In this document: one piece after another, positions 4,755 through 58,055 of the stretch
Layout of the letters: every line of letters starts with the position of its first letter
Numbering within the stretch: the first letter of the stretch is position 1
Source: Spartobacteria bacterium
Lineage (GTDB): Bacteria > Verrucomicrobiota > Verrucomicrobiia > Chthoniobacterales > UBA10450
Assembly (NCBI GenBank): GCA_003167555.1
Contig: PMSN01000003.1
Coordinates: 1-64,000 of the forward strand
Direction: 5' to 3'
DNA length: 64,000 nucleotides
Program-made: the position numbers and the translations under genes
Notes under the pieces: generated by a model
Told to the model about the DNA's origin: nothing
What the model saw: the letters and a program-made list of their open reading frames with translations, nothing else
Database searches by the model: none

Positions 4755-6938
4755 TCAGAGGCGCTTCATGATCTCCCGAATGCGCTCGACCATCCGTTGA
4801 CCCGCGGCTTGGAGCGAAAGAGTTTTCAGCATTTCCGTTTTGGCGTGCGCGCCCAGGATGGAAGCGGCAGCGCGGTCCTCGAACACCTGTCGCATATAAG
4901 TCGCCGCCTGATCAACTGACGGCTCCGCCCAGAAATTTCCTTTTGTGTAATTCCCGTGATTCTCGGTGATCTCCACGCGGCGATAGTCGACCAGCATGCT
5001 ATTTTCTGAACTCATGAAGTCGAGATTGCCCGAATACCTCGTGGCGATCACCGGTTTCCCCAGCGACATCGCTTCTGCCATTCCGAGACCGAAACCCTCG
5101 GACCGGTGCAAGGACACAAAGCAGTCGCACAGCTGAATCAGCCCAAGAGAGGCGGAACGCGAAAATAACCGATGGATCAAGACGATATTGGCGCCGCGGG
5201 CGATTTGCTCCAGCTCCGCCAGGGCCGGCGTATGCTCGCCGCCGCTCGCCTTGATCGCCAACGTCACTTTTTCGTCCGGAGAAAATGCCTGTTGAAACGC
5301 CCGGATCACGCCGTGCGGATTCTTTCGGCGGATCTGGCTGTGCAGATCGAAAGCAAATAGGAAAACGCAGTGGTCCTCGGGGATGCCAAGCGTCGCCCGT
5401 GGGATGCGCTCGACCTCACCGATTTCGACCCCGGGCGCCATTTGATAGACTGGAACGGGCATTCGCGCGCGCATGGCCGCCGCGACAAACTCTGTGGGCG
5501 CCCAGATTTCATTGATGAGCGGCGCGAGCTGGACCCAATCTTCCGGAATGGTTTCCAACTCCCAGTACCAGTACGCGATCCGGTAAACATTGTTTCGCCG
5601 GAAGAGCCCACTCCGTTCGTAGGCAGTTACGAAATGCGGAGTGGGCGCGTTAGTTAGCAACGTAATCGGATAAATTTCGAGTCCGAGCCAATCGGTGCGC
5701 TCGCCCGTCCTGCTGGCCACATCGACGGGGACATCCCGGCAGGACGTGCCTACGCCGCAGTTTTCCAAGGATTTTTTGGTGGCCAGGGCGGCCTGCCGAA
5801 GTCCCGACGAATAACAAAAGTGACTGAGAATATTAACGCCTCCGACCTCCGTCCTGGCGGATGCAGGTGAGGGTCTCTGGAAACGTCGCGCCAACGAACG
5901 TGGTTCCGCCCCGGAGAAAACTCCGGTCACTCTCCGAGGCGAAATTCGCGCGAAATCTGATGAAAAATGGCTCGTGAACCAGTGTCTGAACGGCTTCCAG
6001 CCCCTCGACGTGAAAGCTAGGGGGAACTGCTCCTGCCATGCAGGGTTCAGAAGATAAGTGAGCGATAGGCCGTGCATCAGATCCTCCGCTGACGCGTGCA
6101 AGAACCAAAGAATTTCCTCGTCGGTGAGGGCGTGAATAGCGCGCCCAAACGTCGTTAGCCAGGACAGAAAATCTCGCTGCCCCATAGGCAAGAGTCCCAA
6201 CGGGAAGAAGCGCTGTAGCGCCGGATCGTTGACGTAGAGGTCGTAAATGCGTTTATCTGGTCGATGGTCGAAAGCTTCCACAATCTGAAAGATGGCAAGG
6301 TCCGAGAGCCCGAATTGGCGACGGCCGTTTCGGATGACCCAGTGAAAGAACTTCCCGTCAGCGCCGTCTGAGATCGCACGCGGAAATCGCCATCGCAGCG
6401 AAGAGTTTTCCCACAGCATCCTGACTACGAATCGTGCAGCCGACCCCTTGCCTTCCTCGACCTGCCTGGCAGGAACCGCGCGAAAATCGAGATCATTTTC
6501 CCGAGCGATCGAGACGAACGACGGATCCCAAATCACGAGGCGGCACGGCCTCAGCGAATCGCGCTTCTGCCGCAGCCGATCGCTCGGCACGCTCTGCGTC
6601 CCGAAACGGTCGCCATATTCCGGGCTGTTGACGAGCTGCTCCATGGCCGCCCCCCAATCCGTGCTCGCACCGCCGGCCACGAATTGGTTCCAAGCCTGGC
6701 GGTCAGGGGCCCTGGCCAAAACGCAATCATACATTGCCGTCACAATCTCCGGCGGACTTCGACCTTCGATAAATCGGCCCTTCCATTCGTCGCTCTGGAG
6801 CAATTGCTTGATCAAATCGCCAACGCTCATCGCGCCGCTTGTGAGAACCGTGGCATAGATTTCCAGGCCGACAGGTTCGACCTCCCGCTTCAAGACCTGT
6901 CTGTATGCTGCTCGAACGATCTCTTCGGCGGACAACAT
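4755..6938 (-). CDS. DUF4214-containing GT4-family glycosyltransferase
   Basis: The start at 6938 (MLSAEEIVRAAYRQVL) is preferred because AAGGAGG lies just before it; an in-frame ATG at 7019 would add 27 residues. The N-terminal ~100 residues hold two DUF4214-like helical units (AYRQVLKRE...DEWKGRF and MYDCVLAR...SPEYGDRF). A middle region of unknown fold (about 115-360) follows, then a GT-B glycosyltransferase: AYWYWELETIP, the helix NEIWAPTEFV, and the donor-site motif SEGFGLGMAEAMSLGKPVIA. It should transfer a sugar from an NDP donor to a glycan in the cytoplasm. It is divergent from the aminotransferase at 7169. The acceptor is unknown. Confidence 0.85.
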   Translation of the reverse strand: MLSAEEIVRAAYRQVLKREVEPVGLEIYATVLTSGAMSVGDLIKQLLQSDEWKGRFIEGRSPPEIVTAMYDCVLARAPDRQAWNQFVAGGASTDWGAAMEQLVNSPEYGDRFGTQSVPSDRLRQKRDSLRPCRLVIWDPSFVSIARENDLDFRAVPARQVEEGKGSAARFVVRMLWENSSLRWRFPRAISDGADGKFFHWVIRNGRRQFGLSDLAIFQIVEAFDHRPDKRIYDLYVNDPALQRFFPLGLLPMGQRDFLSWLTTFGRAIHALTDEEILWFLHASAEDLMHGLSLTYLLNPAWQEQFPLAFTSRGWKPFRHWFTSHFSSDFARISPRRVTGVFSGAEPRSLARRFQRPSPASARTEVGGVNILSHFCYSSGLRQAALATKKSLENCGVGTSCRDVPVDVASRTGERTDWLGLEIYPITLLTNAPTPHFVTAYERSGLFRRNNVYRIAYWYWELETIPEDWVQLAPLINEIWAPTEFVAAAMRARMPVPVYQMAPGVEIGEVERIPRATLGIPEDHCVFLFAFDLHSQIRRKNPHGVIRAFQQAFSPDEKVTLAIKASGGEHTPALAELEQIARGANIVLIHRLFSRSASLGLIQLCDCFVSLHRSEGFGLGMAEAMSLGKPVIATRYSGNLDFMSSENSMLVDYRRVEITENHGNYTKGNFWAEPSVDQAATYMRQVFEDRAAASILGAHAKTEMLKTLSLQAAGQRMVERIREIMKRL

Positions 6939-24727: not shown

Positions 24728-25314
24728 TAGGTCGTCCCCGAGTTTTGCGTTTGGCAGAGAGCTTGGAGAAGCATGTGGCCGACGATGAGCTGCATGTCTT
24801 CAACCACCTGCATGTCGTCGATGGGGAAGTGGAGGACGACGTCAGCCAGATCTTTGCAGGCGCCGCCGGAGTAACCGAGAAGCGCGAAGCTTTTCATTTT
24901 ACACACCTTCGCCTGTTCGAGCGCCTTGACGACATTCGGTGAGTTTCCGCTGCCGGAGAGAACAATGAGCACATCGCCCGGGTCGGCTTCCGTGGCGAGT
25001 TGGGCGGCGAAAACGTTGTCGTAGCCGATGTCGTTCGCGAGACAGGTGAGGACCGAGACGTTCGCGGGCAGGGCCGACATCTTCATTCCTTTCCCGCCTG
25101 ACTTCGCGACGGGGTAGAGGAAATCGTTGGCCCAGTGAATGGCGTTCGCGGCGCTGCCGCCGTTGCCGCAGATGAACACGCGGCGGCCATCGCGCCACGC
25201 CGCGGCCAGCTCGTCCGCGAGCAAGGTCCCACTCTGCCAATCCTGGCGCGCGAGAGCGTCGGTCAGCTTGGCAGCGTAATCTTGAAACGCCGAGATGGTG
25301 AAGGCGCGAGACAT
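24727..25314 (-). CDS. GmhA-like sugar isomerase (SIS domain)
   Basis: Starting at the ATG at 25314 gives 195 residues, the usual length of sedoheptulose-7-phosphate isomerase. The SIS phosphosugar-binding motif is CGNGGSAANAIHWAND and the second is LSGSGNSPNVVKAL. GmhA turns sedoheptulose-7-phosphate into D-glycero-D-manno-heptose-7-phosphate, the first step of heptose synthesis. The HldE-like fusion and two SDRs follow in the same operon, supporting an activated heptose or related sugar. A second SIS protein lies at 43195. Confidence 0.88.
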   Translation of the reverse strand: MSRAFTISAFQDYAAKLTDALARQDWQSGTLLADELAAAWRDGRRVFICGNGGSAANAIHWANDFLYPVAKSGGKGMKMSALPANVSVLTCLANDIGYDNVFAAQLATEADPGDVLIVLSGSGNSPNVVKALEQAKVCKMKSFALLGYSGGACKDLADVVLHFPIDDMQVVEDMQLIVGHMLLQALCQTQNSGTT

Positions 25315-55131: not shown

Positions 55132-55632
55132 ATGGCTGAACCATTCCTTGGCGAAATAAAAATTATTTCCTGGAACTTCGCCCCCAAAGGGTGGTCGTTC
55201 TGCAACGGTCAGCTTCTGCCGATCAACCAGAACCAGGCCCTCTTCTCCATCCTGGGCACGACTTATGGCGGCGATGGCCGCGTGAACTTTGCCCTTCCGG
55301 ATTTCCGCGGCAGGGTGCCGATCTACCAGGGCGGGGGTTGGCTCATCGGCCAGACCTCCGGCGAGGAGTTTCACACACTCACTCAGCAAGAGATGACGCT
55401 GCATCAGCACCAAGCCATGGCCCAAGCGGCGGCCGCGAACTCGCCGGATCCCACGAACTCGTTCCTCGCGGATGTTTCGACGAAGGCTTACGGCCCGCCC
55501 GTTGCATTGCTAGCCCTGGCTGCTTCCAGCGTGAGCAACGTCGGCCAAAGCCAGCCCCACGAGAACCGTCAGCCATTCCTCGTCCTTAATTTTATCATTG
55601 CCCTCCAAGGCATATTCCCGTCGCGGAACTAA
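55132..55632 (+). CDS. phage tail collar domain protein (copy 1)
   Basis: This 166-residue protein has the tail-collar/microcystin-dependent-protein pattern: FLGEIKIISWNFAPKGWSFC, NGQLLPINQNQALFSILG, TTYGGDGRVNFALPDFRGRV, then a C-terminus ending ENRQPFLVLNFIIALQGIF. Related proteins in phage form short tail fibres; bacterial versions without other phage genes are widespread and of unclear role. Copies 2 and 3 follow with 18 and 21 bases between them and a clear ribosome-binding site each, so the three form one operon. Confidence 0.9.
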   Translation: MAEPFLGEIKIISWNFAPKGWSFCNGQLLPINQNQALFSILGTTYGGDGRVNFALPDFRGRVPIYQGGGWLIGQTSGEEFHTLTQQEMTLHQHQAMAQAAAANSPDPTNSFLADVSTKAYGPPVALLALAASSVSNVGQSQPHENRQPFLVLNFIIALQGIFPSRN

Positions 55633-55650
55633 CCGGAGAAAGGGAGAAAA

Positions 55651-56169
55651 ATGTCTCAACCATTTGTCGGTGAAATCAGAATGTTCGGCGGCAATTTCGC
55701 GCCATCGGGGTGGGCGATGTGCCAGGGTCAGCTCATAGCGATCTCGGAGAACGATACTCTCTTCCAGCTGATCGGAACCACCTACGGCGGAGACGGGCAG
55801 TCGACGTTTGCCTTGCCGGACCTGCAAGGGCGCGTTCCCATACACCAGGGCCAGGGTCCCGGAATTACGCAAAATTATACTATCGGCGAGAAAGCCGGGG
55901 TCGAGAACGTCACCTTGACAACCGGACAGTTACCCGTGCACACCCACAGTCTGCTCGCCTCGACCAATAACGCGCTGAACACCTCGCCGACCAATAACGT
56001 TCTGGCGGCTGGCATTACCACGAAAATGTATACGGAAGACGTCGCCAACCAGGCGATGAATGCCGGGGCGATCACTCCGGTCGGCGGCAGCCAGCCGCAT
56101 GATAATATGCAGCCCTTCCTCGTCCTCACATTTATCATTTCGCTCTTCGGCGTCTTCCCGAGTCAGTAG
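55651..56169 (+). CDS. phage tail collar domain protein (copy 2)
   Basis: This 172-residue paralog shares MFGGNFAPSGWAMCQGQL, TTYGGDGQSTFALPDLQGRV and the C-terminal DNMQPFLVLTFIISLFGVF. Between, it has a variable region with HTHSLLASTNNALNTS. It is preceded by GGAGAAAGGGAG as ribosome-binding site. The copies differ most in the middle, as expected for parts that face a partner. Confidence 0.9.
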   Translation: MSQPFVGEIRMFGGNFAPSGWAMCQGQLIAISENDTLFQLIGTTYGGDGQSTFALPDLQGRVPIHQGQGPGITQNYTIGEKAGVENVTLTTGQLPVHTHSLLASTNNALNTSPTNNVLAAGITTKMYTEDVANQAMNAGAITPVGGSQPHDNMQPFLVLTFIISLFGVFPSQ

Positions 56170-56190
56170 TTAGGAGAAAGGCGACAACCT

Positions 56191-56718
56191 ATGGCTAATC
56201 CATTTGTAGCAGAAATCAGAATGTTCGGGGGAAACTTCGCTCCCACTGGCTGGGCCAGTTGCGACGGACAGCTTCTGCCCATTTCGCAGAACACGGCGCT
56301 GTTCTCGCTTCTCGGCACGTCCTACGGCGGCGACGGCAAATCGAATTTCGCTCTGCCTAACCTCGCGGGTGCCGTTCCGATAGGGCAAGGTCAGGGGCCA
56401 GGCCTGTCCGAGCGCTTCCTCGGGGAGATGTCGGGTGAGACCAGTATAACCCTACTTACATCAGAGATCCCGCTGCACACCCACTCGATGAATGCCCACA
56501 CACCCGACAACGCCGACCTTCTGACGCCGACGGCCCTCGACGTTCTGGCCAAAGCCAATCCCGGCAACGCTTTCAACTCGACCACTTCCGGAGTGCAGGC
56601 CATGAACATCCAGGAACTCACGCTCGCGGGAGGCAGTCTCCCCCACAACAACATGATGTCGTTCCTGACGGTGTTCTTTATCATCGCGATGCAAGGCGTC
56701 TACCCGCCAAGGTCGTAG
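56191..56718 (+). CDS. phage tail collar domain protein (copy 3)
   Basis: This 175-residue third copy shows MFGGNFAPTGWASCDGQLL, TSYGGDGKSNFALPNLAG and the end NNMMSFLTVFFIIAMQGVY. It has a ribosome-binding site AGGAGAAAGG before the ATG. Its stop lies four bases before a 116-bp palindromic element that separates it from the GNAT gene. The trio plus DUF6916 at 57756 suggests a shared role in a secreted fibre or adhesin. Confidence 0.9.
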   Translation: MANPFVAEIRMFGGNFAPTGWASCDGQLLPISQNTALFSLLGTSYGGDGKSNFALPNLAGAVPIGQGQGPGLSERFLGEMSGETSITLLTSEIPLHTHSMNAHTPDNADLLTPTALDVLAKANPGNAFNSTTSGVQAMNIQELTLAGGSLPHNNMMSFLTVFFIIAMQGVYPPRS

Positions 56719-56722
56719 AGTT

Positions 56723-56838
56723 AGGTGGATCGAGCGCTCCGTCGCTCGATGTTATTGTTTCCTAGCGTCGCTGGCATTAGTTGTCATCGAGCGATCCGTT
56801 CGACTTCGCTCAGGATAAACTCAGCGCTCGATCCACCT
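56723..56838. repeat. palindromic element filling the gap before the GNAT gene
   Basis: Perfect 16-bp inverted ends (AGGTGGATCGAGCGCT and its complement) lie at 56723-56738 and 56823-56838, with inner hairpins. It contains a TCGACTTCGCTCAGGAT word shared with the repeats at 57341 and 57714. The right end touches the GNAT start codon at 56839, so the 5' region of that gene is made of repeat. Confidence 0.8.
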
Positions 56839-57306
56839 ATGACATCAATCGCTCTTCGCCCCATCACGCCGGAGGACGAATCATTTTTGCGCCGCTTGTT
56901 TGCCAGCACGCGCGCGGAGGAGCTGGCGATCACCGGCTGGAGCGAAGAGAAGAAGGCGGCCTTCTGCCGGATGCAATTCGACGCGCAGAGCGCCGATTAC
57001 CGGAAAAATTACGCCGATGCGTCCTTTGACATTATCGAGCGCGACGGTGTGGCAGCGGGAAGATTGCTGGTGTGGCGATCGGGAAAAGAAATTCTCATCG
57101 TCGACATCTCGCTTCGGCCCGAACACCGCGGTGCCGGCATCGGCACTAAGCTGCTAAGAGAGTTACAAGACGAAGCGCGCGCAGCCGGCAAGTCGCTGAC
57201 GATTCACGTCGAGCGTTACAATCCCGCGCTGCGGCTTTATAAGCGGCTCGGGTTCAAGACGGTCGAAGAGCAGGAGGTGTATCTGTTGATGGAGTGGATC
57301 GCGTAA
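56839..57306 (+). CDS. GNAT-family N-acetyltransferase
   Basis: The ATG at 56839 (MTSIALRPITPEDESFL) gives 155 residues. The acetyl-CoA-binding motif is LRPEHRGAGIGTKLLRELQ and the final strand is NPALRLYKRLGFKTVEE, as in GNAT enzymes. The acceptor is unknown. The gene's 5' boundary is a palindromic element with no visible ribosome-binding site, so its expression may depend on the upstream operon. Confidence 0.85.
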   Translation: MTSIALRPITPEDESFLRRLFASTRAEELAITGWSEEKKAAFCRMQFDAQSADYRKNYADASFDIIERDGVAAGRLLVWRSGKEILIVDISLRPEHRGAGIGTKLLRELQDEARAAGKSLTIHVERYNPALRLYKRLGFKTVEEQEVYLLMEWIA

Positions 57307-57340
57307 ACGCGCTCCCCCCTGTCATCCTGAGCTGAGAGCT

Positions 57341-57741
57341 TGTCATCCTGAGCGTCAGTCGAAGGATCTCTTGACAGGTATGGCGTTCGACTAGTCAAAC
57401 CAATCCGCCGCCAGATCATCCCAATCCGGATTCAGTGTCGCGATTAGCGCATTCTTTTTCTCGCGCCGCCATCCCTTGAGTTGCTTCTCACGTGCGATGG
57501 CATCGCGGATCTCACGAAAATGCTCATGATAGACGAGATGAACGCAATGATAACGCTCGGAAAAACTGCCGGGCTTGCCGGTAGTGGGATGCTGCCATAC
57601 GCGACCGCGCAATTCACTCGTGACGCCAATGTAGAGCGTCGAACGCGTATTGTTGCTGACGATGTAAACCCAATAATCGTTGTTAGCTCGACTCCTGGCC
57701 CTGGGGAGAAATTAGATCCTTCGACTTCGCTCAGGATGACA
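57341..57741. mobile_element. GIY-YIG cassette bounded by near-perfect inverted repeats
   Basis: A 29-bp left end (57341-57369, TGTCATCCTGAGCG... ...GTCGAAGGATCT) and a 28-bp right end (57714-57741) are inverted copies differing by one substitution and one extra base. A partial extra copy lies at 57320-57332. Between them is one small reading frame for a GIY-YIG nuclease. The layout is that of a small mobile unit; mobility itself is inferred. Confidence 0.6.
57391..57696 (-). pseudogene. GIY-YIG nuclease with lost start codon
   Basis: The frame from 57696 to the stop at 57391 encodes 101 residues of GIY-YIG type: NDYWVYIVSNN, LYIGVTSELRGR (the YIG half), REIRDAIAREKQLKGWRREKK and a Trp/Asp-rich end. 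The expected start codon is AGG (57694-57696), where ATG would give MSRANNDYW; no ATG, GTG or TTG lies between that point and the in-frame TAA at 57712. An internal ATG at 57612 loses the active site. So the gene may have decayed, or may use an unusual start. Small GIY-YIG proteins are often found inside repeats. Confidence 0.65.
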
Positions 57742-57755
57742 TTAGCGGCGGCGCA

Positions 57756-58055
57756 TCAATTAAAGACTGCTTCAAAGGTGCTGCTCGTTTGATCGGCGGC
57801 GATCTGGACCAGGAAAATTTCCATCTCGCCGAGCTGAGCGTTGCTCATCTGGTAGATGCCCTGGCGCAGACGCAGCGGCGGCGGACCGCGAAAGGTGAGC
57901 GCGAACGGCTCACGCTTCCCCTCACGTGGGGACGGTCCCAACCGGCGTGCCTCGGAAAGTTGCAGGATCAGCGTGCCGCCGCTGGTGATGACTTCGAAAT
58001 CCTGATCAACGCAGGCGGCGAATTCAGCGCATTGAACTTTGTCGAGGGGCAGCAT
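57756..58055 (-). CDS. DUF6916-family protein
   Basis: This 99-residue protein has the DUF6916 pattern: FEVITSGGTLILQLSEAR, FALTFRGPPPLRLRQGIYQM and LGEMEIFLVQIA. DUF6916 genes occur near tail-collar genes in other bacteria, as here where the tail-collar trio is 1 kb away. The function is unknown; a structural role in the same assembly is plausible. Confidence 0.75.
   Translation of the reverse strand: MLPLDKVQCAEFAACVDQDFEVITSGGTLILQLSEARRLGPSPREGKREPFALTFRGPPPLRLRQGIYQMSNAQLGEMEIFLVQIAADQTSSTFEAVFN

Follow-up and report, generated by a model that had tools for sequence, protein, structure and literature searches.

GIY-YIG nuclease genes bounded by GTC-tagged palindromic repeats, from a Verrucomicrobiota genome to many bacterial phyla

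Few repeats are as common in bacterial genomes as short palindromic ones, and for those tagged with GTAG (REPs) the known enzyme is RAYT. Another set of REPs, described by Di Nocera et al. in 2013 (PMC3733652), has a CGTC (often TGTC) tag and a stem starting with AT. According to that paper, these CGTC REPs are apparently without a dedicated transposase; it found no tyrosine transposase flanked by them, and it does not mention GIY-YIG.

Like the REP/RAYT system (REPtron) and its REPINs, the unit described here has a small enzyme gene in low copy number with inverted REPs on either side, comes with many REPs and REPINs that are non-autonomous, and has shown no target duplication. It differs in having a GIY-YIG nuclease and a GTC tag, whereas RAYT has HUH/Y1 chemistry and GTAG. 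Thus, one criterion of REP/RAYT is met (an enzyme gene bounded by inverted, genome-dispersed REPs) and the other, a Y1 HUH transposase, is not (PF01541 GIY-YIG only). Because its enzyme has another fold, the unit works like REP/RAYT without being a member of it, and there is a reasonable chance that the GIY-YIG/REP coupling is a new class. The criterion for classical IS/MITE (DDE) elements, target-site duplication with a DDE transposase, is also unmet. No report linking GIY-YIG with REP, RAYT, dRS3, Rickettsia palindromic elements, MITE or DUF559 was found in the open literature (preprints and subscription papers lay outside the scope), in which matches for these pairings concerned only fungal mitochondria or were unrelated. 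The 13-mer GTCATCCTGAGCG is absent from open paper texts, and no open papers citing the 2013 study were found when sought by its title phrase.

The unit in the window and the REPs of its genome

The window, the whole stretch of 64,000 nucleotides analysed from a 4.2-Mb Verrucomicrobiota genome, carries at 57341–57741 a GIY-YIG frame with a GTC-tagged palindrome on each side, the two copies facing outward. The left REP (TGTCATCCTGAGCGTCAGTCGAAGGATCT, 57341–57369, plus strand) and the right REP (TGTCATCCTGAGCGAAGTCGAAGGATCT, 57714–57741, minus strand) are both of the CCT stem type; their arms of 28–29 bp start with TGTCATCCTGAGCG, end with GTCGAAGGATCT, and are identical over 14 nt and 13 nt, with differences confined to the middle. 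Comparison of the arms and a profile match of the frame to PF01541 (E = 3.5e-13; 50 bits, with the cut-off at 22.6) confirm the near-perfect inverted pair around a GIY-YIG gene reported in the preliminary description. GIY-YIG is the only recognisable gene between the arms, and neither the list of frames nor the profile search revealed a transposase gene within the unit. An extra partial REP head (TGTCATCCTGAGC, 57320–57332, plus strand) lies outside the left REP, and the host flanks hold a GNAT acetyltransferase gene (56725–57306, plus strand; PF00583, E = 1.4e-13) and a DUF6916 gene (57756–58055, minus strand; PF21880, E = 2.4e-25), both outside the unit. Elsewhere in the window, at 55132–56718, three consecutive genes (55132–55632, 55651–56169 and 56191–56718) encode similar proteins of ~170 aa that, on a reading of their sequence only, are tail-collar/microcystin-dependent-protein-like.

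The frame (57391–57711, minus strand) is open for 106 codons and contains the GIY-YIG catalytic domain at 57454–57675. From the in-frame stop upstream to the GIY motif there is no ATG, GTG or TTG, and the copy is therefore probably dead and not expressed. The preliminary description had attributed this to a start codon changed from ATG to AGG. The absence of a start holds, but the specific change cannot be demonstrated because the site yielded no orthologous copy: in both relatives that were compared (G003 and G005) the sequence there is unrelated. Its further suggestion that the copy is a dead remnant of an intact unit is supported by the presence of such a unit in the same genome. This intact gene (L009; 107 codons, C16:30362–30682) is flanked by inverted arms of 66 nt that are 82% complementary and consist of the REP first and then CCCCGTCG, much like REPINs; the L009 unit is therefore a REPIN with a gene in its spacer. 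The L009 and window enzymes share 41–44% identity and stand apart on the enzyme tree.

The REP itself occurs in 66 copies in the source genome at ≤3 mismatches, against none for the pattern read backwards, so its occurrence in the window is not due to chance; with the commoner, closer CCC-type consensus the count is 104. The right window REP is one of only two matches without mismatch to the consensus genome-wide. Stems of the genomic REPs co-vary in pairs (ATCC..GGAT, ATTC..GAAT and ATGC..GCAT), and the REPs mostly form inverted pairs of 80–138 bp, commonly ~80–95 bp, with the GTC tags outside, that is, REPINs, with 33 pairs of REPIN size. Among the REP matches listed, no outward inverted pair other than that of the window has a spacing above ~150 bp and below 700 bp. 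In 31 of 35 elements of this genome, the GTC tag is preceded by T or C. In DNA folding, the GAGC-class REPs of the window form 5-bp stems; a single REP of this class folds weakly (−1.4 kcal/mol, no better than shuffles) and a whole REPIN folds strongly, as any inverted repeat would.

On balance, we read the window unit as a decayed copy of a two-part element, in which a GIY-YIG gene of ~95–110 aa occupies the spacer of a REP pair, and lone REPs and short-spacer REP pairs (REPINs) as non-autonomous derivatives of this REP-gene-REP unit; this account is favoured, not secured.

Nine GIY-YIG domains were found in the source genome. The preliminary description had held that GIY-YIG relatives without flanking repeats would speak against the coupling; those of this genome that lack the repeat form a separate clade, split off with 99/97 support, and some lie beside another palindrome. 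By eye, three GIY-YIG genes of this genome (L012, L014 and L015) adjoin tRNA-like sequence, and a second tRNA-like 3′ part comes after L012, a hint of tRNA-directed insertion (again by eye, without a tRNA search).

Residues Y9, Y21, G23, R31 and E68 are invariant or nearly so in 67–77 family sequences, and the criterion for the GIY-YIG superfamily (the GIY/YIG tyrosines, Arg and Glu) is met. AlphaFold2 gives a confident fold (pLDDT 85), which Foldseek places closest to the UPF0213 protein BH0048 (PDB 1zg2) and then, weakly, to Slx1 (2.3–2.4 Å r.m.s.d. over 72–73 columns; E about 0.02, low identity). By sequence, too, only UPF0213 proteins match among solved structures, with BH0048 best (E = 1.1e-7), making it the closest solved relative on both counts. 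For the enzyme, no defence-system or NCBIfam profile exceeded its cut-off, and profiles of group I intron endonucleases gave weak matches below theirs. We know of no association of UPF0213 proteins with palindromes. Slx1, a structure-selective nuclease that processes branched DNA, has the GIY-YIG fold in common with the enzyme, which by contrast is a nuclease domain alone.

GIY-YIG genes and GTC-tagged REPs across phyla

Relatives of the enzyme were taken as the best 80 from one scan on protein sequence only, so that flanks played no part in the choice. They come from Verrucomicrobiota, Kiritimatiellota, Bacteroidota, Bacillota, Actinomycetota, Fibrobacterota, Spirochaetota, Acidobacteriota, Chloroflexota, Pseudomonadota, several candidate phyla and others, and 76 of the 80 gave testable loci. 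Local alignment of each flank with the reverse complement of the opposite flank reached a score of at least 20 at 41 of the 76 GIY loci, against 5 of 528 shifted positions. Under a tag-and-stem rule (an outward GTCAT-NNN with N′N′N′-AT downstream, within 300 bp; tag plus 5-bp stem), GTCAT hairpins stood on both sides of 41/76 GIY loci compared with 1/499 shifted positions, and on at least one side of 64/76 compared with 22/499; ~16% of GIY loci had none on either side. Eight altered tags put through the same rule gave no GIY locus positive on both sides (0/76). Neighbouring ORFs were positive on both sides in 2 of 261 cases (Fisher p about 4e-29 against the GIY loci), and those of ≤200 aa in 1 of 98. 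The enrichment of GIY-YIG genes between inverted repeat copies that the preliminary description had proposed to look for in related genomes is thus massive, and it extends across phyla.

The stems point the same way: 139 of the 237 outward GTCATs near GIY genes have a complementary partner, against 18.7 ± 3.9 when stem letters were exchanged among loci, and elsewhere in the loci 46 of 539 do; the hairpins near GIY genes comprise 16 stem types. A test for perfect 7-bp stems (12/76 positive on both sides) was too strict, since GAGC-class stems are bulged, and was replaced by the tag plus 5-bp rule. The latter misses stems closing with GGAC and undercounts: only four of 15 family relatives with strong matches pass it, and most of the 15 have a best inverted match of TGTCATCC or TGTCATTCC type, REP-like with a stem that closes differently.

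Within genomes, among the matches listed, REP pairs have short spacings and rarely wide ones, and GIY-YIG genes lie inside wide ones. In one Hymenobacter genome (G044), REP pairs listed are ~127 bp apart except for C10:5952/6496, which encloses a GIY gene at 6067–6348; in another (G055), the listed pair C22:145874/146348 encloses a GIY gene at 146010–146288. A Bradyrhizobium-type REP, TGTCGTCCCTGCGAACGCAGGGACCCATA, was found only in the three Bradyrhizobium-type genomes among 29 searched, again among the matches listed, and REPs of this type bound the GIY genes in G057, G064 and G065. Within the window's genus, REP numbers are 104, 60, 178 and 8 where a strong gene is present, the last figure belonging to G002, which has the gene yet few REPs, and 1–6 in gene-less genomes. 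At family level, gene presence and REP number are moderately related (Spearman 0.58, p = 0.002; Mann-Whitney p = 0.054), which is suggestive only.

A GIY-YIG protein search of plasmid records led to species and genera named in the 2013 study. A REP pair was present at 8 of 10 loci from this search, those of Rhizobium tumorigenes and Photobacterium being without one, and canonical CGTC REPs were found in the units of Azospirillum lipoferum 4B (CGTCATCCCCGCGAAGGCGGGGATCCAGG), N. aromaticivorans pNL2 (CGTCGCCCCGTGCTTGACACGGGGCTTGG), S. meliloti (CGTCATCCTCGGGCTTGACCCGAGGATCCA) and N. gonorrhoeae (CGTCATTCCCGCGCAGGCGGGAATCTAG; Neisseria, dRS3-like). The REPs described here fit the CGTC/TGTC superfamily of Di Nocera et al. 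in having an unpaired CGTC/TGTC tag outside a stem that starts with complementary AT, and in occurring in many copies, mainly as inverted dimers (104 copies and 33 REPIN-size pairs in the source genome). The remaining criterion, an 8–9-bp stem with a 4–5-nt loop, is not met by the GAGC-class REPs of the window, whose stem is shorter (5 bp) and bulged, whereas the alphaproteobacterial and Neisseria units show this canonical form. A further difference is their occurrence in Verrucomicrobiota and many further phyla. Because the pairing recurs in many bacterial phyla, the GIY-YIG enzyme is a strong candidate for the missing partner of CGTC/TGTC REPs.

Occupied and empty sites and the proposed mechanism

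The unit of A. lipoferum 4B lies between sufB and sufC; the gap is without it in A. ramasamyi, A. oryzae and B510, although identity to the 4B flanks is 96.5, 95.3 and 94.7%, respectively. Shinella sp. PSBB067 has a different unit with different REPs in the same gap. In Sphingomonas parapaucimobilis (L235) a DUF559 gene lies there, independently of the GIY-YIG units of A. lipoferum and Shinella (L218 and L236): the gap is a recurrent landing site. Several Sphingobium strains have a unit between fnrL and a response regulator, a site that is empty in TomTYG72 and in TomTYG74 holds a single REP; the latter is perhaps a deletion footprint from recombination between the palindromes. This single REP (L241, about 25100–25160) keeps both outer GTC tags. 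In the window's genus, the L009 unit is common to G000 and G005; G002, G004 and G007 lack it, and G006 may retain a REP remnant. At the REPIN site L004, G000 and G004 carry the REPIN, and five congener loci are empty. Between G000 and G005 the intact gene of the L009 unit has a pN of 0.14 and a pS of 0.78 (saturated), showing that it is under purifying selection.

The comparison of occupied with empty sites that the preliminary description had proposed as a way to find target duplications is therefore possible, both kinds of site being at hand, but no flush duplication was seen in 35 elements of the source genome. At REPIN site L004 a suggestive duplication of ~13–16 bp was left uncounted.

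GIY-YIG enzymes are hydrolases, and strand joining by them is not known to us. In the mechanism we propose, the nuclease would recognise, near the GTC tag, a REP hairpin that is extruded or forms on single-stranded DNA during replication; it would cut at the REP near this tag, or at a target, and host repair would copy a REPIN, or rarely the whole unit, into the break. The GIY-YIG enzyme would then do for CGTC/TGTC REPs what RAYT does for GTAG REPs, by different chemistry. Cross-phylum coupling, co-variation of enzyme and REP class, presence/absence polymorphism and purifying selection on the intact gene are observed; that the enzyme recognises its REP, and that cutting and host repair spread REP, REPIN and unit, is inferred, and we regard it as the better bet with appreciable doubt remaining, given the absence of biochemical evidence, the hydrolytic nature of GIY-YIG enzymes, the lack of a flush target duplication, the weak hairpin of a single GAGC-class REP, the merely moderate relation of gene presence to REP number (with G002 as a gene-bearing genome of only 8 REPs) and the ~16% of GIY loci without a hairpin on either side. 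The interpretation of nuclease-driven spreading offered in the preliminary description is supported to this extent, the spreading itself remaining an inference.

The main rival is that a free-standing homing endonuclease parasitises the REPs, cutting REP-bearing sites and inserting itself by gene conversion while the REPs spread otherwise; the difference is whether the enzyme moves REPs or only itself. Like such endonucleases, the unit is a small nuclease gene at sites empty in relatives, and empty and occupied alleles both exist; cleavage of the empty allele and copying into it by repair, the criterion of homing, would have to be assumed. Apart from the gene in its spacer the unit is a REPIN, units recur in the sufB–sufC gap of Azospirillum and Shinella with different REPs, TomTYG74 has one REP at the site of its relatives' full unit, and the weak profile matches to group I intron endonucleases, below cut-off as they are, would also suit this reading. 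However, several empty sites contain no REP at all (Azospirillum, Sphingobium TomTYG72, G002, G004 and G007), and most genomes of the window's genus without an intact gene hold few REPs. The unit differs from free-standing homing endonucleases in being bounded by dispersed palindromes of its own with non-autonomous derivatives. The lack of biochemical data counts against both explanations. We consider homing unlikely, although it remains a serious contender.

Specificity of nuclease and palindrome

REP loop classes, defined by our own regular expressions, follow the enzyme tree: the largest class, GAGC, requires 6 changes against 18.8 when shuffled, and all classes together 10 against 20.3, with no shuffle as low as the observed number in either test. 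Shared host ancestry contributes to this tracking, yet GAGC-class REPs are found across many phyla. By itself, the label 'REP on both sides' shows no clustering on the tree; a structural column count was given up for mixed REPs, whose loops vary in length.

Genes for DUF559 nucleases have a palindrome family of their own (CCTCTCCC...GGGAGAGG...GAGGTGAGGG), with CCTCTCCC...GGGAGAGG palindromes on both sides in 9 of 12 relatives and 10 of 23 loci of other genomes, that is, in 19 of 35 loci (L242–L251, L260 and L267–L296). None of these 35 loci has GTCAT hairpins and none of the 80 GIY loci has the DUF559 palindrome on both sides, a double dissociation in which each nuclease goes with its own palindrome. 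A DUF559 gene/palindrome pairing was also noted at L235, 1029–1439. Members of the second GIY-YIG clade (L010, L144, L146, L156 and L157) adjoin CCGCGTAAAAGGCTTCGCCTCACGCGG palindromes, a possible third pairing of nuclease and palindrome. The source genome further has five Y1_Tnp genes; the three RAYT loci examined with full flanks carry other, different inverted repeats, and none is bounded by GTC-REPs. One RAYT/Y1 gene (L299) has a perfect 29-nt inverted repeat, AAATGTGGGAGGGGCCTCAGTGCCCCGAC, at 661–689 and 1198–1226. Since the repeats of DUF559, the second GIY-YIG clade and RAYT differ, different small DNA enzymes go with different palindromes.

This specificity bears on the view that REPs merely gather round a small dispensable gene, or in permissive intergenic sites, without any functional link. 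REPs and gene are both intergenic and the enzyme has no assigned function, as such a passenger association would have it. Small neighbouring ORFs, however, show the arrangement in only the single case in 98 noted above, DUF559 genes have their own palindrome and never the GTCAT hairpins, and loop class follows the enzyme tree, so we strongly disfavour a neutral association. That RAYT/Y1 transposases move the REPs while the GIY-YIG enzyme only resolves or trims their hairpins as a housekeeping nuclease is least credible of all, for although Y1_Tnp genes are present in the source genome, the three of its RAYT loci examined with full flanks have repeats of their own, and the 2013 study found no tyrosine transposase flanked by CGTC REPs (PMC3733652).

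Beyond the GTC-REPs, small non-transposase nucleases, each clade with a cognate palindrome, could make up a general class of minimal mobile elements. By cutting and host repair, and without the chemistry of a transposase, these would carry palindromic repeats through bacteria; we put this forward tentatively, as an idea whose chances fall a little short of even. Its proposed members are GIY-YIG clade 1 with GTC-REPs, DUF559 with CCTCTCCC and, perhaps, GIY-YIG clade 2 with CCGCGTAAAAGGCTTCGCC.

If the proposed mechanism is true, a dedicated GIY-YIG partner would answer the question of how CGTC/TGTC REPs, for which the 2013 report gave no enzyme, spread, and would explain repeats such as those of the Neisseria dRS3 type. 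It would also suggest that DNA can spread by means of a hydrolytic nuclease in place of a transposase, and it offers a simple, testable pair of enzyme and hairpin in many culturable bacteria.
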